A stretch of 64,000 nucleotides of DNA, from the NCBI GenBank assembly GCA_013289685.1, contig JABCZL010000002.1:248001-312000 (forward strand). Reading direction: 5' to 3'. Shown here piece after piece: positions 45,831 to 60,137 of the stretch; positions within the stretch are counted from its first letter, which is position 1; each line of letters starts with the position of its first letter. Made by a program: the position numbers and the translations under genes. The notes below the pieces were generated by a model. The model had not been told where the DNA came from and ran no database searches. It worked only from the letters and a program-made list of their open reading frames with translations. The stretch is from Acidobacteriota bacterium (lineage in GTDB: Bacteria > Acidobacteriota > Terriglobia > Terriglobales > Acidobacteriaceae).

Positions 45831-47168
45831 TCAGGCGTTCTCTTCTTCGCGCGGACCCGATGCAACCAGCTTGATTTCGTACAGCAAGACCAAGCATAGC
45901 AATAGCAGTGTCCAGGTTTCTTGGGGCATCACAACGCAGTTCCACCACCAGGAATCTTTGACGGCATCAGAAATTTGTCCGTGTAGGGCGAGTTGCTGAA
46001 GAAATGCCGTGCCGGGGACCAAAAAGGCTGCCATCAGTAGCAGTGCGATCTTGACGGTGGTCCTTAGTCGTCCAGGCGACTGGGTCATGCACCAGGTCAT
46101 TCCCCAGCACAGCGGCACGACCAGGAGCGCGGCATCATAGAACCGGTGATAGACGGGCAGGAGGGCGATGATCGAGATGGCTCCGAGCGACAGCAATTCT
46201 GGCACGTGGCCGTTGCCGCGGGCTACCCAATAAATCCAGGTGCAAACCAACAGGCCGCCCACGGCAAACGCCAGCAGATTGGCTGATGGGGATTGCCCGG
46301 TAATCGCAAAAAAAGGAACTTGCAGATTGATTAGAGTGAAGCGAATGGGGTTGGCGGAGGAGAAATCGTCAATGTGATTCGCCGTGACGAATCCCCGGGC
46401 GTTGTGTAAATAGTCCTGAAGCCAGGAAGTACCCCAGAACCACAGATACAGCGCGGCAAAGAAGGCCAATCCCAGGGTGCTGGCGACCGCGGTTGCGAAC
46501 AGTTGCCAGCGTCGCCGCACAAGATAGTAGAGGACCAGAAAGGCTCCGATTTGCGGCTTCAGGCTGCACGCCACTCCGAACAGGACGCCGGCCGCAACAT
46601 CGTGGCGGTTCCGTGCTGCCCAGATTGCCACCGCGCACGCTCCAATCACGAGGATGGTCGTGTTTCCAGCGGCAAGTCCGGTGTGGAACGGGGCCAGCGC
46701 CAGGCAGGCGGCGATGAAAGCCAAAGTGCGAAGTTCGTCCCACCGAAATCCGCCAACCAGTGCCAGCGCCCATACCGTTGCCACGAACGAGATCAACAAG
46801 ATCACCAGCCAAAGAATCCTGGCGATTTTCCACGGAAATGCGGCCACCGGCGCCAGCACTACCAGGCCACCCAGGGGCGGGGCCAGATGAGTCCTTATGT
46901 CGTTGAGTTCCAGGCGGCTGCGGCCCTCATGCTTCCACAGCGCGACGAAATTCTTGGGAGCGGAGGGATTCTGCCCTTTCAGCCAAAGTCTCGACGCGGT
47001 GTAGTTCTGCGACAGATCGTTCCAGTTCGTGGGATTGCGCAGGAACCTTAACGGGCCGCGGGCGACAAACTCGGTACCGGCTAACAAAAGTAAGATCCAA
47101 AGCAGGATTCTTAGATTTCGGATGGTGGAAGGCTTGTAATCCTGGCGCTGGCTCGTAGTGGTTTCCAT
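45831..47168 (-). CDS. GT87 / DUF2029 mannosyltransferase-like membrane protein
   Basis: The 445-residue multi-pass membrane protein begins with a membrane segment and has the GT87 features NWNDLSQNYTASRLWLKGQNP (acidic residue in the first loop) and several GAxWA-type helices. The family transfers mannose or related sugars from polyprenol phosphate in the periplasm. It overlaps the preceding aminotransferase (ATGA). It is the end of the minus-strand operon. Confidence 0.8.
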   Translation of the reverse strand: METTTSQRQDYKPSTIRNLRILLWILLLLAGTEFVARGPLRFLRNPTNWNDLSQNYTASRLWLKGQNPSAPKNFVALWKHEGRSRLELNDIRTHLAPPLGGLVVLAPVAAFPWKIARILWLVILLISFVATVWALALVGGFRWDELRTLAFIAACLALAPFHTGLAAGNTTILVIGACAVAIWAARNRHDVAAGVLFGVACSLKPQIGAFLVLYYLVRRRWQLFATAVASTLGLAFFAALYLWFWGTSWLQDYLHNARGFVTANHIDDFSSANPIRFTLINLQVPFFAITGQSPSANLLAFAVGGLLVCTWIYWVARGNGHVPELLSLGAISIIALLPVYHRFYDAALLVVPLCWGMTWCMTQSPGRLRTTVKIALLLMAAFLVPGTAFLQQLALHGQISDAVKDSWWWNCVVMPQETWTLLLLCLVLLYEIKLVASGPREEENA

Positions 47169-48370
47169 CAGCCTTGGATCCGGATAGAGCAGGCTTGGCG
47201 AAGTGCCCTTGCAACCCGGTCTTGCTGTTCTTCCGTTATTTGGGAGAAGAGTGGCAGGATCACGCCTCTGCTTTGCGCTCGTTCACTCTCGGCCAGGTTT
47301 GGACAACTTCCATCGGGTTTGCATTCAATTTGCGCGCAACGCCAAGTCGCGGGGGCGCTGTAAGCAGGCTCAAGGTGCGCGCACATAATGCCCCTGCGGG
47401 TTGCGATGCCCTCGTCGAGCATGTGCTGCATAACCTGGCGCTGGTTAGTGGCTTCGGGCAGGCGCACGCAGTAGCTTTGCCAGTTGGTGCGGGCCCATTC
47501 GGGTTCCGCGGGTAGAACGAGCCCGGGAATGTCGGCGAGCAGTTGCCGGTAGCGTGCGGCCATCTGCCGGCGCTGCGCGATCGCTTCGGGAAGGCGCTTC
47601 AGTTGTTCGCGTCCCACCGCAGCTTGAATGTCGGTCAACCGATAGTTGAATCCCAGTTCCGGATACGATTCAAAGACCACTTCCCGCGATGAGTGCCGCA
47701 CCGTGTCGGGCACGCTCATGCCGTGCTGCCGCCAGAGACGGAGTTTGTGATCGATTTCAGCGTCTGCTGTGGTCAACATGCCGCCGTCCCCGGTGGTCAG
47801 CAGTTTGCGGGGATGGAACGAAAAGCACGCAACATCTCCATGCGGTCTGCCGATTCTTTCCCACCGGTCTTGCCATGAAATCTCGCTTCCGATCGCACAG
47901 GCGGCATCTTCCACGACGGGAAGCTGGTGCTTGCGCGCCACCTCGAGGATTGCTTTCAGGTCGCAAGGCATCCCCATCTGGTGAACGCACAGAATCGCTC
48001 GCGTGCGTTTGCTGAGGGCCGGCTCGATCTTTCGCGGGTCGATGTTGAATGTTGCCGGATCAATATCAACGAAGACTGGCTTGGCGCCGCAGTAGCGAAT
48101 GCTGTTGGCCGTGGCGATGTAGGAATGACTGACGGTGATCACTTCATCGCCGGGGCGCACGCCTACTGCCAGCAAGGCGAGGTGAAGGGCGGTCGTGCCG
48201 CTGGAGACCGCACAGGCATGCGGCGCACCCACGAACTCGGCAAACTCGCGTTCGAAGGCCGCGACCTCGGGGCCCTGCGTGACCCACCCTGACAGAATCG
48301 CCCGCCCGGCAGCCGAGACTTCTTCCTGCCCGAGATGCGGACGCGCTACTGGAACAAAATCATTAGGCAT
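47168..48370 (-). CDS. DegT/DnrJ/EryC1/StrS sugar aminotransferase
   Basis: This is a 400-residue PLP enzyme for amino-sugar synthesis. PLP lysine is Lys189 in [27 protein letters not shown] and VEDAACAIGSE complete the family pattern. It starts at ATG 48370, which is itself the next copy of a 13-bp repeat (48371-48435). It could act on the product of the upstream epimerase/dehydratase (48428). Confidence 0.9.
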   Translation of the reverse strand: MPNDFVPVARPHLGQEEVSAAGRAILSGWVTQGPEVAAFEREFAEFVGAPHACAVSSGTTALHLALLAVGVRPGDEVITVSHSYIATANSIRYCGAKPVFVDIDPATFNIDPRKIEPALSKRTRAILCVHQMGMPCDLKAILEVARKHQLPVVEDAACAIGSEISWQDRWERIGRPHGDVACFSFHPRKLLTTGDGGMLTTADAEIDHKLRLWRQHGMSVPDTVRHSSREVVFESYPELGFNYRLTDIQAAVGREQLKRLPEAIAQRRQMAARYRQLLADIPGLVLPAEPEWARTNWQSYCVRLPEATNQRQVMQHMLDEGIATRRGIMCAHLEPAYSAPATWRCAQIECKPDGSCPNLAESERAQSRGVILPLFSQITEEQQDRVARALRQACSIRIQG

Positions 48371-49444: not shown

Positions 49445-49504
49445 TGTTACCCCCGCGGAGAAGATCGAAAAATGGGAATGATGATTCTATCAAGACGGGC
49501 GGGC

Positions 49505-50536
49505 TTAGCTGGATGGTTGAGCCGTCGATTCTGCGCCGGGCTCGACCTCCAGCCGACGCTTAAGTTGTGCCAGGCTGATGCCTTTGACCGCGAGCAGGCA
49601 CATCCCGGCAACGATGTTCGCAACAAACACCCAAGCGTGGATGACCACGGTTAACGCCAGTGCGCTGCCGGCGGCAATCCCGGCTAGTTTGAAGGCCTCC
49701 GTCCCGAACAGCTCATAGGTGCCCAGGCCACCGGGTGCCGCGGGAATCATCAGGCCCAAACCCAGAACGGCCGAGGCCACCACGGCCGACTTTAAGGACA
49801 CGGCCAGCCCCAGAGCCCGGGCCAGTCCCCAGATTGTTCCGGCTTCCGTGGACCAGATGGCTGCGGTAATCAGCAGTAAAGTCAGCATCTGTCCGGCGGA
49901 ACTGACGGCGCTCAGTCCATCCGCAAACGAAGTGAGTAGGCCGTCGAACTTTTTCTCCAGTGAAGGGAGATGCACGAGGCGGAATGCGCGGCGCACCGAG
50001 TCAATCAGGACGCGCGTTCGATAGCGCAGAGCCACCAGCAGAACCAGCGCTCCACCAAAGATCAAAATCGACACCCGCAACAGATCGAGAACCCAATGGG
50101 GAGGATGCAAAGCCCAAACGGCGAACAGAACCATTCCAACCAGAGCCAGCCCATCCATGACTTTTTCGACCGCGAGCGTTGCCAGCGTGCGGCTGCTTTC
50201 GGTGAGCGAGCCCGCGCGCCCCACCAGAACGCAACGAGCCACATCGCCCGCGCGCCCCGGCAACAGAAAATTCGCCATGTTCCCGATGCCCAGAACGGTC
50301 AGGCACGCTCCAAGGCTAGGACGGGAGGACGAAGGGAAAATCAGTTGCCAGCGCCACGCGCGCAACGGCAGGTTCAGGAACAACACCGCAAGAGGAATTA
50401 GCAGGAACGGACCGTTCAGCCGCCCCAGCGCATTCCACGATTGTTTGAGGTCTACCTGCCGCAGGAGAATGGCAATACATCCGAGGCCGATGAGAACGCC
50501 CACCACGGCCGACTGGACGCGGAACCTACGTCCCAA
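49505..50536 (-). CDS. Lysylphosphatidylglycerol synthetase/UPF0104 flippase-like membrane protein
   Basis: The 343-residue protein has about eight membrane segments and the UPF0104/AglD patterns LPLRAWRWQLIFP, FLLPGRAGDVARC, and PGGLGTYELFGTEAF. Members of this family occur beside GT2 enzymes in polysaccharide loci and may move lipid-linked sugars. It starts at TTG and overlaps the GT2 gene by 11 bases. Confidence 0.82.
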   Translation of the reverse strand: MGRRFRVQSAVVGVLIGLGCIAILLRQVDLKQSWNALGRLNGPFLLIPLAVLFLNLPLRAWRWQLIFPSSSRPSLGACLTVLGIGNMANFLLPGRAGDVARCVLVGRAGSLTESSRTLATLAVEKVMDGLALVGMVLFAVWALHPPHWVLDLLRVSILIFGGALVLLVALRYRTRVLIDSVRRAFRLVHLPSLEKKFDGLLTSFADGLSAVSSAGQMLTLLLITAAIWSTEAGTIWGLARALGLAVSLKSAVVASAVLGLGLMIPAAPGGLGTYELFGTEAFKLAGIAAGSALALTVVIHAWVFVANIVAGMCLLAVKGISLAQLKRRLEVEPGAESTAQPSS

Positions 50537-51524
50537 AGCGCCGTCCCAGTTCTCGCGGTTGCTTATCGGCGGCGGCGGTGTCCACCTCCGAAGTATCTTC
50601 CAGGAAATATATCGGGCGCTGCCGTGCCGCCTCCAGCGTCCTCCACAGGTATTCCCCGAGGACTCCCAGCATCATCATTTGAACCCCGCCGAGCACGAGC
50701 ACCACGACGATCAGCGACGACCATCCCTGCACCGGCGTGCGCGTCATCAGCCGCAGAACCGCCACGACCAGCGCATACATGAAACCTAAAAGGCTGAACA
50801 GCATTCCCAGGTAGGACATTGCACGCAACGGAGCGTAGGAGAAGGAGACGAATGCATCCGCGAAGGCCGTCAGTTTTTTCTTGAGTGTCCACTTGGATCC
50901 GCCTGCGGCCCGTTTTTCCTTGGTATAGGTGATTTGCGCCGACGAGAATCCCAGCCTAGCGATCTCACCGCCCACGCTGGGATGACTTCCCGCCGACTTC
51001 AGCAAAGCGTCGACGACCTTTCGGTCCAGCAGGGCAAAGTCCGAGCCTCGGGGGGGCAGGTTCACTTCACCGAGAAGATTCAGCACGCGGTAGAAGGTGT
51101 TGGCCAGGAACAGATCGGCCTTCGAGATCCCCGCGCGTTCTTCTCTCACCGCCCACACCACGTGATGGCCCGACCGCCACAAATCGAGCATCTGCAAAAT
51201 GAGTTCCGGCGGGTCCTGCAGGTCAGCGGCAAGAAACACCGCGCATTCTCCGCGCGCCTGCGCCAGACCGGCGAGGATGGCCACGTGGCTTCCGCTGTTC
51301 TTGGCCAGCCGGGCATAGCGGAATCGCGCATCGCTCCGGCAGATGTTTTTTAGCAATTCTGGAGACCGGTCGGAAGAATGATCGTCGGCCAAGATGATCT
51401 CCGCATCCAGCGGAGAGAGCCGGTCCATAAACGAGCGCAAACGCTCCACCAGAGCGGGAAGTACGGCTTCTTCGTTGTAGAGCGGGATGACGATGGACAG
51501 ATCGGGTCGTGGTTTCATTTCCAT
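50526..51524 (-). CDS. Glycosyltransferase family 2 with C-terminal membrane helices
   Basis: The 332-residue protein has a GT2 domain (LSIVIPLYNEEAVLP, DADI-like LADDHSSDRSPELL, FLAADLQDPPELI, DFALLDRKVVDALL) and two C-terminal membrane helices, the DPM1/GtrB-like layout. It probably makes polyprenyl-phosphate sugar for the GT87 enzyme. ATG 51524 overlaps the methyltransferase stop; a GTG one codon upstream is also possible. Confidence 0.88.
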   Translation of the reverse strand: MEMKPRPDLSIVIPLYNEEAVLPALVERLRSFMDRLSPLDAEIILADDHSSDRSPELLKNICRSDARFRYARLAKNSGSHVAILAGLAQARGECAVFLAADLQDPPELILQMLDLWRSGHHVVWAVREERAGISKADLFLANTFYRVLNLLGEVNLPPRGSDFALLDRKVVDALLKSAGSHPSVGGEIARLGFSSAQITYTKEKRAAGGSKWTLKKKLTAFADAFVSFSYAPLRAMSYLGMLFSLLGFMYALVVAVLRLMTRTPVQGWSSLIVVVLVLGGVQMMMLGVLGEYLWRTLEAARQRPIYFLEDTSEVDTAAADKQPRELGRRFGT

Positions 51525-52198
51525 CACATCCCTGCCTTCAACTCGCCCTCGAAAGCCCGAAAGACTCTGCGCTCCGAAGTGGTGTCGTCGCGAAAGAGAA
51601 AAATAGAAAACTCGTATGGCATGTAGTCATGGCGGAGAAGCACGCGTCGGGTCAGTCGTTTGGCGACAGCCAGCGCCCAGCCGGGATCAGTATGATGAGC
51701 GCCCGGCTTCTGGAAGTCGACGTAGCTGCTGAGAAAATCCACGCACGTCGCACAGCGGCACCGCTGATACATGCTGTGCAGCGCCGCCTCGATATGGGTC
51801 TCATTATTGCCACTCGGCAAGGCTGCATTCAGGGCTCCCGATGAGATCACGAAGTCGTATTCACCCACCGGCATCGAGTCGTCAGTGATGTCGAGCTCCC
51901 GCACATCGAGATCCGGATGACGCCGCCGAGCAACGTCCAGCAGTCCCGGCACAATGTCCATACCTGTGTAACGGCCTCGCCACCCGTGCTGACCCAGGAA
52001 ATCGTATAGATCGCAGAAGCCACAACCTACATCCAGCACCGACGACTCGGGCATGCGCAACGCCGGCTCGGCGAGCACTGAGAAGCGCACCTCCTGGCGG
52101 CCCTGAGCGCCCCATCCTAGCGTTGCAGGGGAGTACCCAAATTCCTCAAGCCGCTTTTCATAACGCTGAACGTAATCCAGACGGTCTTCGGTTTTCAC
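51524..52198 (-). CDS. Class I SAM-dependent methyltransferase, copy 2
   Basis: The 224-residue protein has SVLDVGCGFCDLYDFL, YTGMDIVPGLLDVA and VISSGALN. It starts at GTG 52198 overlapping the amidohydrolase stop. It is a paralogue of the protein at 29586-30212, from the YSERIAQHGY/RYEKRLEEFGY start through to the LRHDYxPxxF ending. A C-terminal extension of about 20 residues is unique. Substrate unknown; possibly the acyl group or sugar made by this operon. Confidence 0.8.
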   Translation of the reverse strand: MKTEDRLDYVQRYEKRLEEFGYSPATLGWGAQGRQEVRFSVLAEPALRMPESSVLDVGCGFCDLYDFLGQHGWRGRYTGMDIVPGLLDVARRRHPDLDVRELDITDDSMPVGEYDFVISSGALNAALPSGNNETHIEAALHSMYQRCRCATCVDFLSSYVDFQKPGAHHTDPGWALAVAKRLTRRVLLRHDYMPYEFSIFLFRDDTTSERRVFRAFEGELKAGM

Positions 52199-52986
52199 GG
52201 CTGCTCCAGGCCCAGAATCCTGCTCAGATTTCCACCCAACACATTGGCACACTTTTCCGGCGCGATTCCGTGGGCGATCTCGCGAACGCCCTCCAACGCA
52301 GTGCCGATGCCGACTTCAGGGAAGTCGGATCCGAAGACAATTCGCCGGTCGAAGCTATCTAGAAGATACCGCAAATCGGCTGCAATGGAACTGGACCGAT
52401 ACCGTTGCAGTGTAAACGAGATATCCAGAAACGCGTTAGGGCAATCTCGAATGGCCTCAGCCACCTGCAGAATCCAGCTTCCGCCGCCATGTAACAGTAC
52501 GAACGTGAGAGCGGGGAACCGTCCCACGAGTTCGTGAATCGTGTCTACCGGAGGTTTTCTCAGCTTTCCGCCGCGGTAATAGAAAAGAGTATCCAGCCAT
52601 ATTGGGAGAGGCAGCTCACGAGACGCCATTTCTTCCAACACCGCCAGGCAGCGAGGATCAAGGGGATCATAGCAATTCAGACGGGGATGGAGCTTTAAAG
52701 CCTTGTAGCCATCTTTCTCGATCTGCGTTCGCAGACCGGCCTTTACCTCTTCGACGCTTCGACAGGCCGCCGGATTGAATGAAGCACAAGGTACGAGGCG
52801 ATCGGGATGCCGCTGACAAACCTCCAGCACAAAACGATTCTCAATGTGTCCCGCAAGGGCGACCACCACGGCCCGCTGTGTCCCGGATTCATCGAGTTGC
52901 CGCAACAACTCCTGCTCGCTGGCGTCACACTTGGTGTCAAACCAGCGTCCATCCGGCGTTACATGCGTAAGCGAATCAAAGACCAT
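52195..52986 (-). CDS. Amidohydrolase-2 family protein (TIM barrel)
   Basis: The 263-residue protein has KALKLHPRLNCYD, LLHGGGSWILQ and FGSDFPEVG, the Amidohydro_2 pattern also seen in pyrone and lactone hydrolases and ACMS decarboxylase. The N-terminal HxH pair of the family is reduced (MVFDSLTHVTPDG keeps one His). It may hydrolyse a lactone or amide or act as a decarboxylase. Its partners are an aldolase, an RraA protein and an ATP-grasp enzyme. Confidence 0.82.
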   Translation of the reverse strand: MVFDSLTHVTPDGRWFDTKCDASEQELLRQLDESGTQRAVVVALAGHIENRFVLEVCQRHPDRLVPCASFNPAACRSVEEVKAGLRTQIEKDGYKALKLHPRLNCYDPLDPRCLAVLEEMASRELPLPIWLDTLFYYRGGKLRKPPVDTIHELVGRFPALTFVLLHGGGSWILQVAEAIRDCPNAFLDISFTLQRYRSSSIAADLRYLLDSFDRRIVFGSDFPEVGIGTALEGVREIAHGIAPEKCANVLGGNLSRILGLEQP

Positions 52987-53007
52987 GATTATGAATAACG
53001 AGAAATC

Positions 53008-54201
53008 CTAGTTCATCACATACCGGATTGATGCAATCGCGCGATCGGCGTACTCAATAGCCTGCTCGCGGGTGTCACCGGTCGTGACGGCGTATCCTGG
53101 CCGATCAGCATCTCCGGCGATCGCGGACACGACAGTTCCAGGATTCATGTGGAAGCCGAAATCGAGAATCCCAGGAAGTCGCGAGGCCTCGGCGACTCCC
53201 AACGCCTGCTGGAATACGCCAGATGGCGGCGCAAAGAACTTATAGCATGCTCCGCGAGCCTGCACGGGCCGAATATCAGGGTCATCCCCCAGCAGGAGCC
53301 GAGCCAACGCCTGGGGCATGCAAACCCCGCTCGCCGCCTCCACAATCTGTCCGAAAATATGCCCTCCTCCCGGCCGCCCTCCCATCTCGAGCAGAAAAAC
53401 ATCCGTGTCGTTGACCATGCATTCGCAATGGAAGGCTCCGTTTTCAATTCCCAGGGCCTGGGCCGCTCGGGTTACCACTTCCGAAGCGCGCAGTAACTGC
53501 CAGTCCGCAAACCGTGCAGGATAGTTAAGGGCCATGGCTACGCGGTATTTAGGATGCTCCTGCGGTTCCTTATCGGACCAGGCAAGAATCTGAGCCTCAC
53601 CCCGCTTGACCAGGCCTTCGATTGTCATCTCAGTACCGGAAATGCATTCTTCAACGATAAACTCGCCGTCTCTGCAATTGGCGCGAGCATAGTCAATTGC
53701 CCAAGGCAGGTCTCCCGCTTCGGCGATGCGGCTGACGCCGCGGCTTCCCCAGTTCACGGCTGGTTTCAGAATCAGAGGGTAGCCAAGCGAGGAGGCTGCT
53801 GCGGAGATCGCGTCCGCCGAGTCGGCCCTGTGGAAGGCTGGCTGCGGAAGGCGTGCCTTTTGCCACGCTTCGCGCATGAGTCCCTTGTGCAAGCAACGGA
53901 GAGCCACGTCCGGAGGCAGGTTGGGAAGCCCGAGTTGGTGGCTGGCCTCGGCTGCGGCCAATACTCCCGCTTCATTCACCGCCAGAATTAGATCGACGCC
54001 CTGACTCCGTGCATATGCCGCGACGTTTTCGGTATCGCGGATATCAATGACGGCGTGATCCGCGACCAGCGCGAAGCCGGGAGCGTCAGGGGAACCGTCT
54101 GCCGCCAAGACGCGCACGCCAATCTGTTGCAGCTTGCGAATGGAGTGGCACATCAAGCGTCCAGCGCCCAACTGCAGCACAGATCTGTGGCGGGTCCCCA
54201 T
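53008..54201 (-). CDS. ATP-grasp carboxylate-amine ligase
   Basis: The 397-residue ATP-grasp enzyme has a preATP-grasp domain (LQLGAGRLMCHSIRKL), a lysine in YPLILKPAVNWGSRGV, the FIVEECISGTEM segment and HCECMVNDTDVFLLEMGGRPGGG with metal-binding acidic residues. It would activate a carboxylate as acyl phosphate and join it to an amine. In this operon it is the natural candidate to attach a custom acid to the amino sugar made by the aminotransferases. Confidence 0.87.
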   Translation of the reverse strand: MGTRHRSVLQLGAGRLMCHSIRKLQQIGVRVLAADGSPDAPGFALVADHAVIDIRDTENVAAYARSQGVDLILAVNEAGVLAAAEASHQLGLPNLPPDVALRCLHKGLMREAWQKARLPQPAFHRADSADAISAAASSLGYPLILKPAVNWGSRGVSRIAEAGDLPWAIDYARANCRDGEFIVEECISGTEMTIEGLVKRGEAQILAWSDKEPQEHPKYRVAMALNYPARFADWQLLRASEVVTRAAQALGIENGAFHCECMVNDTDVFLLEMGGRPGGGHIFGQIVEAASGVCMPQALARLLLGDDPDIRPVQARGACYKFFAPPSGVFQQALGVAEASRLPGILDFGFHMNPGTVVSAIAGDADRPGYAVTTGDTREQAIEYADRAIASIRYVMN

Positions 54202-54204
54202 AGC

Positions 54205-54852
54205 CTAGAGAGGTTTCAATCCCAGAAGGCTGACCGTGCTTTCGCCCGCCTGCAACCGCCGATACCAATCTTTCTCCGTTGCCATGCGCTTGCCGCTTTC
54301 CTCCAGGACCTGGATGGCGCGGCTGGCGGGCACGACTACGACGCCATCGTCGTCTCCAACGACAATGTCGCCCGGGAGAACTGCAACGCCAGCGCAACTG
54401 ACAGGGACGTTGAGGTTGCAAGGCCAGCCCTTGTGAGGTCCGGCTGGGCAAATTCCGCGAGCGAAGATCGGCAGGGTGTCCGAGCGGTTCTCGGCCGAAT
54501 CGCGCATGCATCCATCAATGACTACGCCAGCCAATCCGCGGTTCTTGGCCGCCTGCGTCATTACATGGCCCCACACCGCGCTTTGCATGCCACCTCGTGC
54601 TGCCAGGACAAGGACATCGCCGGCTTTGGCCAAAACCAGAGCCTGATGAGCGCCCCAGTTGTTGGATTCAACCGACTGAACGGTAAACGCGGCTCCACAA
54701 ATCTTCAAGCCGGGCGCGATTGGGCGAATGCCTGCATCCAGCGATTGCATACGATTCATGCAGTCGCTCAACATCCCAGTGGGCACGCTTCCCAACTGAT
54801 TAACCAGTTCTTGAGGTGGCCGATCGAAGTCTCGAATTACCCACTGGCTCAT
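54205..54852 (-). CDS. RraA-family lyase (HMG/CHA aldolase or oxaloacetate decarboxylase type)
   Basis: The 215-residue protein has GMLSDCMNRM, WGAHQALVLAKAGDVLVL and the Arg/Asp motif VIDGCMRDSAEN, followed by IFARG, which match the metal-dependent class II pyruvate aldolases of the RraA family (for example 4-hydroxy-4-methyl-2-oxoglutarate aldolase) rather than the RNase E inhibitor alone. It lies three bases before the ATP-grasp gene and nine after the aldolase fusion. Confidence 0.85.
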   Translation of the reverse strand: MSQWVIRDFDRPPQELVNQLGSVPTGMLSDCMNRMQSLDAGIRPIAPGLKICGAAFTVQSVESNNWGAHQALVLAKAGDVLVLAARGGMQSAVWGHVMTQAAKNRGLAGVVIDGCMRDSAENRSDTLPIFARGICPAGPHKGWPCNLNVPVSCAGVAVLPGDIVVGDDDGVVVVPASRAIQVLEESGKRMATEKDWYRRLQAGESTVSLLGLKPL

Positions 54853-54861
54853 TTCATGACC

Positions 54862-56997
54862 CTATGAGATGGTGCCCGTCAGTTGTGGCGCGACCAGACG
54901 CCGGTTGATCTCCGTCTGCACTCGCCGCACTCGCTCTGTCTCTTCGTCGCAGAAGCGGAAGCGGACGCCACCTTGACCGTCACACACACCAATGATCCGG
55001 GTGGGATGATGCACGCTGTCGACGATCACGTCGCCCGATTTTCCCATAGCGCCGCCGGCGACCACAGGGATGCCGTCCAGCGTTTCCCATCCCAGGGCGC
55101 CGGTTGTTTCCATCAGCGACTCATGGGCCGCGGAGAGGCTTCCCGTCAAGGCCGGCCAGATGTTGACTCGCAGTAGAAGGCATCCACGGCGCTGTGCCTC
55201 AGTAATTCCGTCCGGCAGGATCGTTCCGATGCCTGCGTCGAGCACGTACGTTTTCCCAGACAGGTGCTTTGCGAAGCGTTGGTTAAACCATGGCGCCCCG
55301 GAGGGCCACACCACAACCGTATTCGCTTTCGAAAGTGCTTCGAACCCGCAACCAGCGTCTGCTTTCATGTATGAGAGCTTCAATTCCTCTCCCTCGAGCG
55401 ACAGCATTCGCATCGGGGCAATCGGAGCCGCCGTGGGCGGCTGTCCCGGGTCTTGCAGCAGAGTTACGCGCGCCCCGCGCTCGGCAAACCGCAACGCCAG
55501 AAAACGGCTGCGGGGATGGTCGCCGGCAATCACAATTTCCGAGTCATTCAAAACTTCGCTCAAAAGGCGGACGACCTGGTCTTCGACGGCCTCGACCCAC
55601 ACGCGGCTGTCAAGGTAGGTGAGCAAGGCAGTTTTCTTCAAGGTTGCTGCGGCTGTTTCCGCCGGCCTCGTTGGACCGAAGGGCTTTCGGTCTACGTCGA
55701 GCAACACCACATCGACCTTGCCATCGACGGCATGCAGCACCGCGTGCAGATGCTGGTCGCTGGTCAGCGCCACCGATCCCACCACGTGCGACTGCGTCGA
55801 ATGGATGTTGCCCGAGACAACGAAATCGGCCAGCGCCTTCTCTGCGGCGACCACGTTCAGGGCCGAAAATTTTCCCGCCTTCACCGCACGGGCACGAAGT
55901 TCCTTCAGCAGCAGGTCCAAAGATTCGCCCGAGGTCTTGTCTTTGCCGGTTTCGACGCGGAATGCGGGGATCGACAGCACTCGCGGCATCTTGAGCGTTG
56001 CCAACTCGTGACTCAGACGCTCCAGCAATTCGTCGGGGGCTGAAACTTGATCTTCCTGACAAAGGCGCACGATCAGGTCGCGCACGTCGATGTCGTGCTT
56101 GTGCGCATAACCCTGCACCTTTCCGGTAAACGACGAATGAAATTTGGCGAGCCCGCCGGTGACGGCCATGGGGTCGACGCCTCGTTTGCCCAGCAGCGGC
56201 TGAATCAGGCCCTGGCCCACGTCCATCGCGGCCTTGAGATCGATGTGTGGCAAGGTGCCGCGTCGCTGCAGAATCGCAACCAGCACTTCGGTGACTGTAT
56301 TGCCGGCCGAGCGCCCCATGCCTTGCAGGGAGGAGTCGACCAGGACTGCGCCCTCTTCAATCGCCCGCAGCGTGTTGGCCATGGCCAGCGAAAGATTGTC
56401 GTGACCGTGGTAGCCGAGAGGAGACGCGCTTTCCGCTTTCGCCGCTCGCAAGTATTCCGCGACCGAATCGGGATCCATGCTGCCTGCGGAATCGACTAGA
56501 CACGCAATATCCGCGCCCCACTTGTGCACTTGCGCCACGACCGCACCAAACTCCGACGGCGAAACCGCATACGACTTCATCGCGTTATACGAGACGATCA
56601 GCCCCAACTCTTTGGCCAGTGCGATGTAGGGCTCGGCCTGCGCCGTCTCGGTTACATTCGTGCCGATGCGGAGGAACGACATTCCATAGCGAGCCGCGAG
56701 ACGAATATCTTCCTCGCGTCCGATGCCGGGGATAAAAAACATGCCCCACTTGGCGTGCTTGAGCGCCTGGGCCGCGGCTCCCATGTATTCTTCATCAGTG
56801 GCCGCCGCGAGTCCTTTTCCCGATTGCGAGGCGTTGAGCCCCAGGCCGTGTCCAACTTCGATCCAGCGAAATCCGATGCCTTCGAGCGCGGCGGCAATCG
56901 TCGCCGTGTCCTCCGCCGTGAACTGGAAGTCGATGAGGTAGGACCCATCGCGCAGCGTAACTTCGAGAATGTCGGGAATGATATCGAATGTGGCCAT
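54862..56997 (-). CDS. Two-domain protein: HOA/DmpG-type aldolase plus unassigned Rossmann-like domain
   Basis: The 711-residue protein has an N-terminal DRE-TIM barrel (about 1-300) like 4-hydroxy-2-oxovalerate aldolase. The metal/arginine motif is VTLRDGSYLIDFQ and the His-x-His ligands are in GYHGHDNLSLAMAN; ACLVDSAGSM and GMGRSAGNT also match. The C-terminal part (about 400-700) contains a glycine-poor Rossmann-like segment (IVIAGDHPRSRFLALRFAERGARV) and GVCDGQGGVRF. I cannot assign it. It is not a recognisable acetaldehyde dehydrogenase, the usual partner of this aldolase. ATG 56997; the stop is ten bases before the RraA gene. Confidence 0.75.
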   Translation of the reverse strand: MATFDIIPDILEVTLRDGSYLIDFQFTAEDTATIAAALEGIGFRWIEVGHGLGLNASQSGKGLAAATDEEYMGAAAQALKHAKWGMFFIPGIGREEDIRLAARYGMSFLRIGTNVTETAQAEPYIALAKELGLIVSYNAMKSYAVSPSEFGAVVAQVHKWGADIACLVDSAGSMDPDSVAEYLRAAKAESASPLGYHGHDNLSLAMANTLRAIEEGAVLVDSSLQGMGRSAGNTVTEVLVAILQRRGTLPHIDLKAAMDVGQGLIQPLLGKRGVDPMAVTGGLAKFHSSFTGKVQGYAHKHDIDVRDLIVRLCQEDQVSAPDELLERLSHELATLKMPRVLSIPAFRVETGKDKTSGESLDLLLKELRARAVKAGKFSALNVVAAEKALADFVVSGNIHSTQSHVVGSVALTSDQHLHAVLHAVDGKVDVVLLDVDRKPFGPTRPAETAAATLKKTALLTYLDSRVWVEAVEDQVVRLLSEVLNDSEIVIAGDHPRSRFLALRFAERGARVTLLQDPGQPPTAAPIAPMRMLSLEGEELKLSYMKADAGCGFEALSKANTVVVWPSGAPWFNQRFAKHLSGKTYVLDAGIGTILPDGITEAQRRGCLLLRVNIWPALTGSLSAAHESLMETTGALGWETLDGIPVVAGGAMGKSGDVIVDSVHHPTRIIGVCDGQGGVRFRFCDEETERVRRVQTEINRRLVAPQLTGTIS

Positions 56998-57003
56998 GAT
57001 GCT

Positions 57004-57055
57004 TCAGCGCGATGCTCTATCTCGACACTTTATCTCGATACTTTATCTCGATACT
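57004..57055 (-). repeat. Four tandem 13-bp repeats, each carrying a stop codon
   Basis: On the minus strand the units are AGTATCGAGATAA (twice), AGTGTCGAGATAG and AGCATCGCGCTGA, each ending TAA, TAA, TAG or TGA. The first TAA is the stop codon of the aminotransferase (57043). The array bridges directly to the aldolase start at 56997, with a partial fifth copy (AGCATCATGG) that contains its ATG. Confidence 0.85.
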
Positions 57056-58185
57056 GCGGTCTGCGTCCTGTTGGCAACCGCTTTCTTCACCGCCCTGGCA
57101 ACTTCCGCGACGGCCTGCGACGAAAGTTCAGGGTACAGTGGGAGCGAGAGAACCTGCTCGGCCGCCGCCTCTGCGTGCGGAAATGCGCCGTGGCCATAAC
57201 CGAGATCAGCATAGGCCGGCTGCAGATGCGCGGGGACGGGGTAATGAATGCCGGTCTGGATTCCTTCCGCCAGCAGAAAAGCCTGCAGTCCGTCGCGCTC
57301 GTCCGTCCGCAGCGTGTAGACGTGATAGACATGCCGGCCCCACGGCATTTCGGTGGGCGACTCGACTCCGGAGTCGGCTAGGAGATCGTTGTATAGGTTC
57401 ACAACCTTACGGCGCGCCTCGGTCCAGCGCTCGAGATGGCGCAGCTTCACGCGTAAGATCGCGCCCTGAAAACCTTCCATCCGGTAGTTGAATCCACGCA
57501 GCAGGTGATGATACTTGCGGTCCTGTCCCCAGTCGCGCAGCATGCGAATCGTGCGTGCATACTCAGGGTTGCTGGTGGTGACCGCGCCGCCTTCGCCGTA
57601 GGCTCCCAGATTCTTGCCGGGATAAAAACTGAAGCACGCCATATCGCCGATGCTGCCCACTGGGCGGGTTTTGTATTTTGCTCCGTGCGCTTGCGCGGCG
57701 TCTTCGATCACAACCAGTCCGTGCCGCCGCGCTATCTCCATGATCGGGTCCATGTCGGCCGACTGGCCGTAGAGATGAACGGGCAGGATCGCTTTGGTGC
57801 GCGGAGTGATCGCAGCCTCAACCGCCGCCGGATCCATGGTGAATGATCGTGGGTCGATATCGACCAGCACGGGCCGCGCTCCGGTGTAAGTAACTGCGGC
57901 AACGCTCGCCACAAACGTAAACGGGACCGTGATAACCTCGTCGCCTGGGCCAACTCCTGCAGCCAGCAGTGCCAGATGCAAAGCGCTGGTACCGGAATTC
58001 AGCGCGATGCACTCGGCTGCGCCGCAATAGGCCGCGAAGTCCTGTTCAAACCCTGCCACCTCGGGGCCGAGGACGAATTGGCAACTTTCCAGAACTCGCG
58101 CGATGGCGGCATCAATCTCAGGCTTGATGCTCTGGTACTGCGCTTTCAAATCGAGGTACGGAACTTTAACCTTAATGTCTGACAT
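57043..58185 (-). CDS. DegT/DnrJ/EryC1/StrS sugar aminotransferase (WlbE-like)
   Basis: The 380-residue PLP enzyme has the PLP lysine at Lys191 in [29 protein letters not shown] and [11 protein letters not shown]. Together with the oxidoreductase at 58257 and the acyltransferase at 59310 it forms a 3-oxo, 3-amino, 3-acyl sugar module like WlbA-WlbE/C-WlbB or the dTDP-3-amino-sugar enzymes. ATG 58185 is preceded by 14-bp repeats. Confidence 0.88.
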
Positions 58186-58213
58186 GGGATGCTTGCCATC
58201 GGATGCTTGCCAT
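58186..58213 (-). repeat. Two tandem 14-bp repeats duplicating the start codon region
   Basis: On the minus strand the units are ATGGCAAGCATCCG and ATGGCAAGCATCCC. The aminotransferase start ATGTCAGACATT forms the next, diverged, copy. Each unit begins with an ATG in a different frame. It sits between the oxidoreductase stop and the aminotransferase start. Confidence 0.75.
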
Positions 58214-58256
58214 GAAATGTCTGCGAGTTCGAATTTCTATTTTCTCACCACCGAGG

Positions 58257-59297
58257 CTACGCGGTCGCCTCAAGCGTGGTCAGGCGTAACTCCACCGGAC
58301 GCCCGCGCTGCGCCATCGACTGCGATGCAGCCTGCAAAATCTCCACCACGCGAAGTCCAGCCCCGCCCCCAGTGACAGGTTCCTCCTGCTGCTCAATGCA
58401 GCGCAGGAAGTGGTCAATTTCGCGGCGCAGCGCCTCCGTGCCGTCGACCTGCGGCGCCAGCATGTCTCCAGTGCGGTAGCCCACCAGCATCTGGTAAAGC
58501 TTTTCCGGGTTCTGATGACTATTCAGCGTGATGCCCTTATCGTAGACCTTAATCTTCTCGCCCTGATCCAGATCATCGTAGACAATCATTTTGCGGCTGG
58601 CACCAATCAGCGTGCGCCGCAGCTTCACCGGGGCCAGCCAGTTGGCGTGTATGTGTGCGATCTGGCTGCCTTCGAAGAACAGGGTGAGATAGGCGATGTT
58701 CTCAGTACCCCCGGGCACATGGCTAAGCCCGGTGGCGGAGACGGCACACGGCCGGAACGGTAATACGTAGTCCATGATCGACAGATCGTGCACCGCCAGA
58801 TCCCACAGCACGTTGACGTCGTGTTGAAACAGGCCGAGATTGACGCGCACCGAGTCATAGTAATAAATCTCGCCCAAGTTACCGCTATCCACGAGTTCGC
58901 GGATTTTGCGGACCGCGCCGGTGTATACGAACGTGTGATCGACCATCAGCACGCGGTTTCGTTTCTGCGCGAGGTCCATGAGATGCTGCACTTGGTCCGT
59001 GTTCGACGCCAACGGCTTCTCGACGAGCACATGCTTGCCTTCCTGCAAGGCTCGCAGAGCCAACTCGTAATGAGTAGAGACCGGAGTCGCAATCGCCACC
59101 GCGTCGATGGAAGGGTCTTCGATCAACTCACGAAAATTCTGTGTCGTCTTGATCGTGGGATAACGGCTGCCCACGAGCGCCAGGCGGTCCACTCGCAAAT
59201 CACTGACCGAGGCCACTTGCGCGCCCGCAGCCTCAAAGAAATTCCGCACCAGGTTAGGCCCCCAGTAGCCGTAGCCGATCGCACCAATCCGAATCAA
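58257..59297 (-). CDS. Gfo/Idh/MocA-family sugar oxidoreductase (WlbA-like)
   Basis: The 346-residue protein has the Rossmann motif IGAIGYGYWGPNLVRNFFE and VEKPLASNTDQVQHLM with the catalytic Lys region EKP, plus AVHDLSIMDYVL. It would oxidise the C3 hydroxyl of a UDP- or dTDP-sugar. It starts at TTG with GGGAGGA upstream. It is 13 bases after the acyltransferase gene, in the same operon. Confidence 0.88.
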   Translation of the reverse strand: MIRIGAIGYGYWGPNLVRNFFEAAGAQVASVSDLRVDRLALVGSRYPTIKTTQNFRELIEDPSIDAVAIATPVSTHYELALRALQEGKHVLVEKPLASNTDQVQHLMDLAQKRNRVLMVDHTFVYTGAVRKIRELVDSGNLGEIYYYDSVRVNLGLFQHDVNVLWDLAVHDLSIMDYVLPFRPCAVSATGLSHVPGGTENIAYLTLFFEGSQIAHIHANWLAPVKLRRTLIGASRKMIVYDDLDQGEKIKVYDKGITLNSHQNPEKLYQMLVGYRTGDMLAPQVDGTEALRREIDHFLRCIEQQEEPVTGGGAGLRVVEILQAASQSMAQRGRPVELRLTTLEATA

Positions 59298-59309
59298 GAT
59301 TCCTCCCTC

Positions 59310-59804
59310 TCAACTTGCCGATTTCGTTGTCTGCTTGCGCGGGACAGCGCGTCCCAGCCGTGCCGGAACACCCTTCACGATCTGCTGATCGGGCACATCA
59401 TGAGTCACAACCGCACCTGCGCCGATCAGCGCTCCTTCTCCGATGCTCACGCCCGCGAGAATGACGGCCCCGCTCCCGATCGACGCGCCGCGCTTCACTC
59501 GGGTGGGAATCACTTGCCAGTCCGCCTCGGTTTGCAGCCGGCCATCCTCGGTTGCCCGCGGGTACAGGTCGTTGATGAACATGACTCCGTGGCCGACGAA
59601 CACGTCGTCTTCGATGGTGACTCCTTCGCAAATAAAAGTGTGCGAAGAGATCTTGCAGCGGCTGCCGACAATTGCGTTTTTTTGAATTTCGACAAACGCT
59701 CCGATCCTGGTCTCATCGCCCACCGTGCAGCCATAGAGGTTGACCAGATCAGGCTGGAAGATCTTCACTCCGTGGCCCAGGACAACGTTGGCAGAAATTG
59801 GCAT
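59310..59804 (-). CDS. Left-handed beta-helix acyltransferase (WlbB-like)
   Basis: The hexapeptide-repeat protein (VVLGHGVKIFQPDLVNLYGC, RIGAFVEIQKNAIVGSRCKIS, IGSGAVILAGVSIGEGALIGAGAVV) fits sugar N-acyltransferases of the WlbB type. The conserved His-bearing GHGVMFINDLYPRA loop matches the family's substrate site. ATG 59804 is preferred; an in-frame ATG at 59885 would add 27 residues without family likeness. It is the first gene of the minus-strand operon. Confidence 0.83.
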   Translation of the reverse strand: MPISANVVLGHGVKIFQPDLVNLYGCTVGDETRIGAFVEIQKNAIVGSRCKISSHTFICEGVTIEDDVFVGHGVMFINDLYPRATEDGRLQTEADWQVIPTRVKRGASIGSGAVILAGVSIGEGALIGAGAVVTHDVPDQQIVKGVPARLGRAVPRKQTTKSAS

Positions 59805-60137
59805 GAAGACCGTTTGTTCGGTTCTCCCCTGGGAACGGGAAGCACTGGAGGCGCGCGTGTTCCGCCGCGTCTCAAAATGGAGCAAATCGAACGATACAAC
59901 AGAATCAGGGTCGCATCAACTGCCGCTCCAATGGCCATTACGCTGCTGTCTTGCCGGTGGCTTGCTTCGGCAAGCTCGACGAGGGCAAAAACCGTAGCAT
60001 CCTATCGAAGATCGCGGCATCCAAGCGGTATGCCTGGATTATGCCGAACTTGATTGTGCCGAACTTGGATTTTGCCGAGCAGTCTATGAGTTCGCGCAGA
60101 CTTGGCAAGCTCACTTGCGAAACCAGGAGGTTTCTCT
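59805..60137. other. Divergent intergenic region with tandem repeats
   Basis: About 330 bases lie between the polysaccharide operon and the Dps-like gene. I see a tandem repeat at 60037-60080 and a good Shine-Dalgarno (AGGAGG) for the Dps-like gene, but no further gene. The minus-strand operon promoter should lie here. Confidence 0.5.
60037..60080 (+). repeat. Three tandem 13-16-bp repeats
   Basis: Units are GATTATGCCGAACTT (60037-60051), GATTGTGCCGAACTT (60052-60066) and a diverged GATTTTGCCGAGC (60068-60080). Like the arrays inside the polysaccharide locus, the unit is short and lies at a gene junction. Confidence 0.75.

Follow-up and report, generated by a model that had tools for sequence, protein, structure and literature searches.

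Whether genes that stand together in one operon also serve one pathway is the question raised by a polar run of genes in a soil bacterium of the phylum Acidobacteriota (genome of 6.85 Mb; assembly GCA_013289685.1), in which enzymes of amino-sugar type are accompanied by two aldolases, an ATP-grasp ligase, an amidohydrolase and a methyltransferase. The window analysed here is the whole stretch of 64,000 nucleotides from contig JABCZL010000002.1, positions 248,001 to 312,000; coordinates given without a locus name refer to it. An original prediction had it that the whole set makes an unusual hydroxy-oxo acid and couples it to the amine of a 3-amino sugar. The genes are where that prediction placed them, as intact open reading frames (ORFs) on the minus strand between 51524 and 59885; its outer limit, 59804, is not the end of the set, since the ATG there lies within the acyltransferase ORF, at residue 28, and is likely the start codon of that gene. 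They open a single run of 13 minus-strand genes from 59885 to 45831, with intergenic gaps of −58 to +71 bp, in which the first eight genes are followed by those for a GT2 glycosyltransferase, a flippase-like protein, an epimerase, a second DegT aminotransferase and a GT87 glycosyltransferase. Judged from the sequences, the set is made of two evolutionary units, a conserved core and an exchangeable cassette; that it forms one pathway is not supported.

This conclusion comes from comparison with three sister loci: L035, L036 and the locus of genome G574 (L042). Only G574 can be read through the whole slot that the cassette occupies; the contig of L035 ends inside the slot, and L036, which has no complete acyltransferase, stops where the ATP-grasp gene begins. 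The core genes are 83–91% identical to those of the window, in the same order, in all three loci (the acyltransferase in two): 83–84% for the acyltransferase (L035 and G574), 90–91% for the dehydrogenase, 88–90% for the first DegT aminotransferase and 84–90% for an aldolase fusion. Because this order and this identity are kept in three sister loci, the operon cannot be put down to genes stacked by chance. The genes flanking the slot are 82–90% identical to those of G574 (GT2 85%, flippase-like protein 82%), and further downstream the second DegT aminotransferase is 83% identical over 394 amino acids and the GT87 protein 66%. Inside the slot the ATP-grasp ligase is only 32–35% identical to those of L035 and G574, the methyltransferase is 34% identical to that of G574, and RraA and amidohydrolase genes are absent from G574, whose slot contains an ATP-grasp, a methyltransferase, a protein with no Pfam match that by eye is similar to polysaccharide deacetylases, and another DegT protein. 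In L035 an ATP-grasp gene directly follows the fusion and is itself followed by a deacetylase-like gene; the ATP-grasps of L035 and G574 are 79% alike, and the 3′ end of L036 carries the start of an ATP-grasp of the same type, as judged by eye. Between the window and G574, blastn finds the blocks 54874–59932 and 49483–51506 and none between them, with the breaks at gene ends. The epimerase, only 37% identical to that of G574, sits in a second exchanged segment.

L035 is the nearest relative of the window in the fusion (90%), yet its ATP-grasp is of the G574 type; replacement of the cassette therefore appears a simpler account than slow divergence, and fits these sequences better. The third-position G+C of the cassette genes is 0.60–0.65, versus 0.69–0.75 for the core and 0.70–0.73 for the next two genes; overall gene G+C was rejected as a marker of the cassette, since its values (0.56–0.61) overlap those of the rest of the operon (0.58–0.61). 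The deacetylase-like proteins of the alternative cassette (named by eye; L042 6091–7056 and L035 10552–11331) are 69% alike over 244 amino acids, and have no Pfam or NCBIfam match. It can also be seen that DNA similarity to L035 and to G574 stops at one shared point, 59932–59934, shortly before the operon begins. Past this point each of the three genomes has different genes, a pattern suggestive of movement of the whole block together.

The cassette of the window measures 3.4 kb and encodes an RraA-family protein, an ATP-grasp of the L-amino-acid-ligase type, an amidohydrolase and a methyltransferase. The first matches PF03737 (147.7 bits, cut-off 24.5), with 3noj as its best solved relative, and falls short of the CHA aldolase equivalog PRK09262 (155.8 bits, cut-off 179). 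The ATP-grasp passes the cut-offs of both ATP-grasp_4 (64.8 bits against 27) and LAL_C2 (61.6 bits against 29.4), and its best solved relative, 3vot, is an L-amino acid ligase. The pair of RraA and amidohydrolase is reminiscent of the LigK and LigI/LigJ steps of meta-cleavage.

The cassette recurs outside the sister group. In G008, a genome of another family of the same phylum, ATP-grasp, amidohydrolase, methyltransferase and RraA genes are contiguous on one strand (35%, 27%, 36% and 24% identical to those of the window, respectively), and adjoin genes of PseB-like (above cut-off), NeuB/PseI, PseG, PseF-like (below cut-off) and Maf-like type, together with flagellin and FliD-like genes (below cut-offs). 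Thus an aldolase-family enzyme does travel with the ATP-grasp, amidohydrolase and methyltransferase beside amino-sugar genes, and to this extent the original prediction is supported. In G510, which comes from a different draw of genomes, GT2 and class I aminotransferase genes are followed by ATP-grasp, amidohydrolase, methyltransferase and a second methyltransferase. Among 247 genomes we found 59 other places with an ATP-grasp relative and 35 with an amidohydrolase relative; 14 genomes are in both lists, and a single contig is common to them, C38 of G008, which is the best non-own match in both. On plasmids, 22 records have an ATP-grasp relative, and in the two opened the relative lies in a capsule-type locus that also has genes for DegT proteins and sugar transferases; of nine plasmid relatives of the methyltransferase, six were opened, all with a WbqC-family gene within ~3.5 kb and with sugar-transfer, sugar-nucleotide or polysaccharide genes nearby. 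ATP-grasp relatives occur in other settings as well: in G670 (L067 2293–5737) the neighbours of one resemble, by eye, cysteine synthase and threonine aldolase genes, which may point to a pathway for a small peptide or an amino acid, and in two other genomes (L086 4630–8264, L087 6549–9281) LAL_C2-type ATP-grasps lie near a radical SAM protein gene, directly next to it in L087 and with one ORF between in L086.

The core genes are fairly read as making a 3-amino, probably 3-acetamido, nucleotide sugar, because the solved relatives of the DegT aminotransferase and of the acyltransferase fit this product, in line with the proposal of WlbA/WlbE/WlbB-like enzymes. The best solved relatives of the DegT protein are headed by 7b0d, named as a scyllo-inositol transaminase, and 2oga, followed by QdtB and WbpE; 2oga is DesV, and DesV, QdtB and WbpE act at C3. 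The nearest solved relative of the acyltransferase is the N-acetyltransferase 7s3u, with 3mqg, which is WlbB, lower in the list. As in the WlbA/WlbE/WlbB and QdtA/B/C pathways, dehydrogenase, DegT aminotransferase and hexapeptide acyltransferase stand in a row; the dehydrogenase differs, as its best NCBIfam match, the UDP-GlcNAc 3-dehydrogenase NF040723, is at 172 bits below the cut-off of 450.

The fusion also belongs to the core. Its aldolase domain passes the cut-off of the NCBIfam subfamily PRK08195 (275 bits over residues 10–333, cut-off 229) and falls short of the equivalog TIGR03217 (252.6 bits, cut-off 286). Characteristic residues of DmpG are Arg17, Asp18 and the metal-binding His200 and His202, together with His21 as the base. 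R16, D17, H197 and H199, which correspond to the first four of these, are present in four of four fusions; the His21/Tyr291 pair of DmpG is reciprocally swapped in all four (Y20 and H287). In BphI the corresponding Tyr290 controls stereochemistry (PMC3962088). The fusion has F87 as well as H287, and comparison with BphI L87W/Y290F would predict altered or (4R) stereochemistry. The fusion thus has in common with DmpFG and BphIJ a class II pyruvate aldolase paired with a putative NAD-dependent enzyme, with metal ligands and Arg/Asp kept; it differs in being a single chain, in the other sequence of its C-terminal half and in the His/Tyr swap, and no homologue of DmpF was found in the window operon, none of whose genes matched an acylating aldehyde dehydrogenase family of that type.

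The C-terminal half (residues 340–711) is present in four of the 45 genomes of the genus; it has no match in plasmids at E 0.01 and none in viral_contigs, and for the window copy no Pfam family scores even at E 10. A loose profile search of 61 genomes gave matches in 12 at E up to 10, with the four true loci far ahead and no other match better than E 0.02; among the weak matches, two proteins that by eye belong to the short-chain dehydrogenases/reductases align over the presumed Rossmann strand, which is too weak to use. Matches to BTH_I2711-like (two members of a three-row alignment, best E 0.094), to iPGM_N (one member, E 0.39), to FerA (G574 copy, E 1.8) and to an acetyl-xylan esterase (best PDB sequence match, E 0.026) were taken as chance. 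A low-confidence model of 244 residues of this half, with a mean predicted local distance difference test score (pLDDT) of 48, looks like the NAD(P)-binding Rossmann domains of DpaA, FolD and 2-hydroxyacid dehydrogenases; that of the whole half (pLDDT 37) was not used. Residues 340–711 are on this model probably NAD(P)-dehydrogenase-like. As relatives of the fusion we rejected the DmpG matches of E. coli, the one opened being an mhp catabolic operon, and that of G261, whose DmpG gene comes after one that by eye is DmpF-like, in a region that looks non-glycan. A second case of this aldolase type in a glycan locus, here unfused, occurs in G292 (L064 10196–12090), where a DmpG-like aldolase and a DmpF-like dehydrogenase belong to an O-antigen-type cluster; its other genes, all identified by eye, include those for a nucleotidyltransferase, CDP-glucose-dehydratase-like and RfbH-like proteins, an epimerase and a thiamine pyrophosphate (TPP) enzyme.

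Table 1. Genes and segments of the operon, in the order of reading on the minus strand.
Feature	Position	Strand	Evidence
Hexapeptide acyltransferase, WlbB-like	59310..59885	-	Hexapep 69.5 bits
Gfo/Idh/MocA dehydrogenase, WlbA/GnnA-like	58257..59297	-	GFO_IDH_MocA 90 bits
DegT aminotransferase, probably C3 type	57043..58185	-	PF01041 433 bits
711-aa fusion, DmpG-like domain (1-335) and C-terminal half (340-711)	54862..56997	-	HMGL-like 129 bits
Exchanged segment	51507..54873	.	No blastn similarity to G574, similar flanks on both sides
Cassette gene 1, RraA-family aldolase (LigK/HMG-aldolase type)	54205..54852	-	PF03737 147.7 bits
Cassette gene 2, ATP-grasp ligase with LAL_C2 domain	53008..54201	-	PF13535, PF18603
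Cassette gene 3, Amidohydro_2 protein	52195..52986	-	PF04909 79 bits
Cassette gene 4, class I S-adenosylmethionine (SAM) methyltransferase	51524..52252	-	Methyltransf_25 42 bits
GT2, polyprenyl-phosphate (ArnC/PgfS-like) glycosyltransferase	50526..51527	-	PgfS 206, ArnC 142 bits, both below cut-off
Flippase-like (LPG_synthase_TM) protein	49505..50536	-	PF03706 153 bits; TIGR00374 above cut-off
NAD-dependent epimerase/dehydratase, second non-conserved segment	48428..49444	-	LegB/RmlB-like, below cut-offs
Second DegT aminotransferase (PseC/ArnB-like)	47168..48370	-	PseC 312 bits, below cut-off
GT87 glycosyltransferase	45831..47168	-	PF09594 72 bits

From the observed gene order, families, conservation, difference of cassettes between sister genomes and recurrence elsewhere we infer a scheme of reactions, acid, acceptor amine and surface location, whose central claim, that the cassette makes a variable acid and links it as an amide to an amino sugar of a surface glycan, has in our estimate about an even chance of being right. 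The dehydrogenase, aminotransferase and acyltransferase of the first unit (59885–54862) would provide the 3-amino (probably 3-acetamido) nucleotide sugar, while the fusion would condense pyruvate with an aldehyde, the product then probably being oxidised or reduced. In the second unit (54852–51524) the RraA enzyme would make a pyruvate-derived acid, the ATP-grasp would use ATP to activate a carboxylate and couple this to an amine of the sugar, trimming or dehydration of an intermediate would fall to the amidohydrolase, and the methyltransferase would cap the product. The ArnC-like GT2 protein would then load the sugar on polyprenyl phosphate, for export and addition by the flippase-like and GT87 proteins. 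Since the operon encodes its own acyltransferase, the 3-amine may already be acetylated; the second DegT aminotransferase may be the source of another acceptor amine, and the acceptor may be either of these or another, the data favouring none. More tentatively, the conserved core, ending in the fusion with its swapped active-site pair (perhaps giving 4-stereochemistry opposite to that of DmpG), might feed a slot in which sister species exchange cassettes, a combinatorial acyl code of surface glycans, with the same cassettes also serving flagellar nonulosonic acids.

Several points weigh against this scheme. G574 is the single genome behind the comparison of sisters across the entire slot, and the dehydrogenase reading of residues 340–711 depends on the 244-residue model of mean pLDDT 48. 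RraA need not be the maker of the acid, because the cassette of G574 lacks it; the amidohydrolase of the window may have lost its role, because the first His of its HxH metal motif near the N terminus is replaced by Leu (L-T-H, versus H-T-H in the L085 and G008 copies). Amidohydrolase and methyltransferase accompany the ATP-grasp in only two (G510 and G008) of ten opened contexts, own and sister loci excluded; no amidohydrolase was seen near the ATP-grasp in G369, G265, G441, G110, G219, G021, G037 and G670, a count in which genes under longer false ORFs were possibly missed, as the methyltransferase of G008 was itself hidden in this way. Alternatively, the substrate that the ATP-grasp amidates could be a sugar carboxylate, giving a uronamide, as with Cj1438C of the Campylobacter jejuni capsule; amide formation by a TupA-like ATP-grasp domain on the C6 carboxylate of glucuronic acid is described (PMC11800379). 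This is unlikely here: the ATP-grasp of the window belongs to the LAL_C2 type, with an L-amino acid ligase as its nearest solved relative, and none of the 13 operon genes matches a UDP-sugar 6-dehydrogenase family. In addition, the pseudaminic-type sugars whose genes lie beside the G008 cassette carry amines.

Equally improbable, in our judgement, is the original claim in its full form, in which fusion, RraA and amidohydrolase jointly produce a single hydroxy-oxo acid, to be coupled by the ATP-grasp to the 3-amine. All these genes share one operon with small gaps, and the ATP-grasp follows the fusion, directly or past RraA, in the window and the three sisters (in L036 as its start only); but it is with the sugar genes that the fusion shares its conservation, G574 has it without RraA or amidohydrolase in the slot, G008 keeps all four cassette families with no fusion-type aldolase recognised among its ORFs in 17 kb (eight scanned), and the WlbB-like acyltransferase would compete for the 3-amine. 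In part, then, the genes are unlinked in relatives, an outcome that the original prediction had itself named as counting against it, and coupling of an acid to an amine stands in kind for the ATP-grasp cassette and fails as a property of one conserved set. The poorest candidate is that the cassette, incidentally placed in a glycan operon, yields a peptide-like metabolite that diffuses away, in the manner of nikkomycin-type pathways: LAL_C2 ATP-grasps can make dipeptides, and 12 of the 22 plasmid records are Streptomyces, but both opened plasmid relatives, G008 and G510 lie with glycan-type genes, and there is no transporter or resistance gene inside the cassette.

The preferred reading, a cassette that acylates an amino sugar, can be considered in the light of known systems. 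By the title of a 2014 paper (given in PMC8987622), the Pyl ATP-grasp of the UDP-Yelosamine pathway of Bacillus cereus joins an oxo acid to UDP-amino sugars; compared by title, the two systems share ATP-grasp ligation to a UDP-amino sugar, and that title mentions no acid-making aldolase, amidohydrolase or methyltransferase. The flagellin operon sfmABCDE of Shewanella oneidensis includes predicted methyltransferase (sfmD) and ATP-grasp_4 (sfmE) genes, deletion of sfmE shifts the flagellin mass, slightly less than other deletions do, and the putative nonulosonic acid carries a 236-Da moiety with extra methyls; ATP-grasp_4 and SAM methyltransferase are thus shared with the cassette, which in G008 stands with nonulosonic-type genes, whereas sfmABCDE has a TPP enzyme and a reductase instead, RraA and amidohydrolase not being described in the text examined (PMC3765264). 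The predicted amino acyl ligase CA_C2195 of Clostridium acetobutylicum is likewise an ATP-grasp among glycan-type genes (sugar-acid synthase, nucleotidyltransferase, glycosyltransferase and methyltransferase), and the part of the article consulted mentions no RraA or DmpG-like aldolase (PMC4000134). In the open-access library searched we found no paper joining 4-hydroxy-2-oxovalerate aldolase, ATP-grasp and O-antigen, nor one joining nikkomycin, aldolase and ATP-grasp, and no title or abstract beginning found there describes the gene set of the window. ATP-grasp attachment of an acid to an amino sugar is, from Pyl, already known; the fusion and the exchange of the cassette are new.

To our knowledge, many odd N-acyl groups of bacterial amino sugars are without assigned biosynthetic genes. 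The groups listed in the part of a survey consulted include amino acids, 5-oxoproline derivatives, hydroxy acids and malonic and malic acids (PMC10609480). A portable cassette of aldolase, ATP-grasp, hydrolase and methyltransferase, found in O-antigen-like and flagellar settings, would provide a search handle for such groups, and with the fusion the family of DmpG aldolases gains a new partner domain. For the bacterium itself, exchanging the cassette in one fixed slot would offer an easy way of altering a surface antigen.

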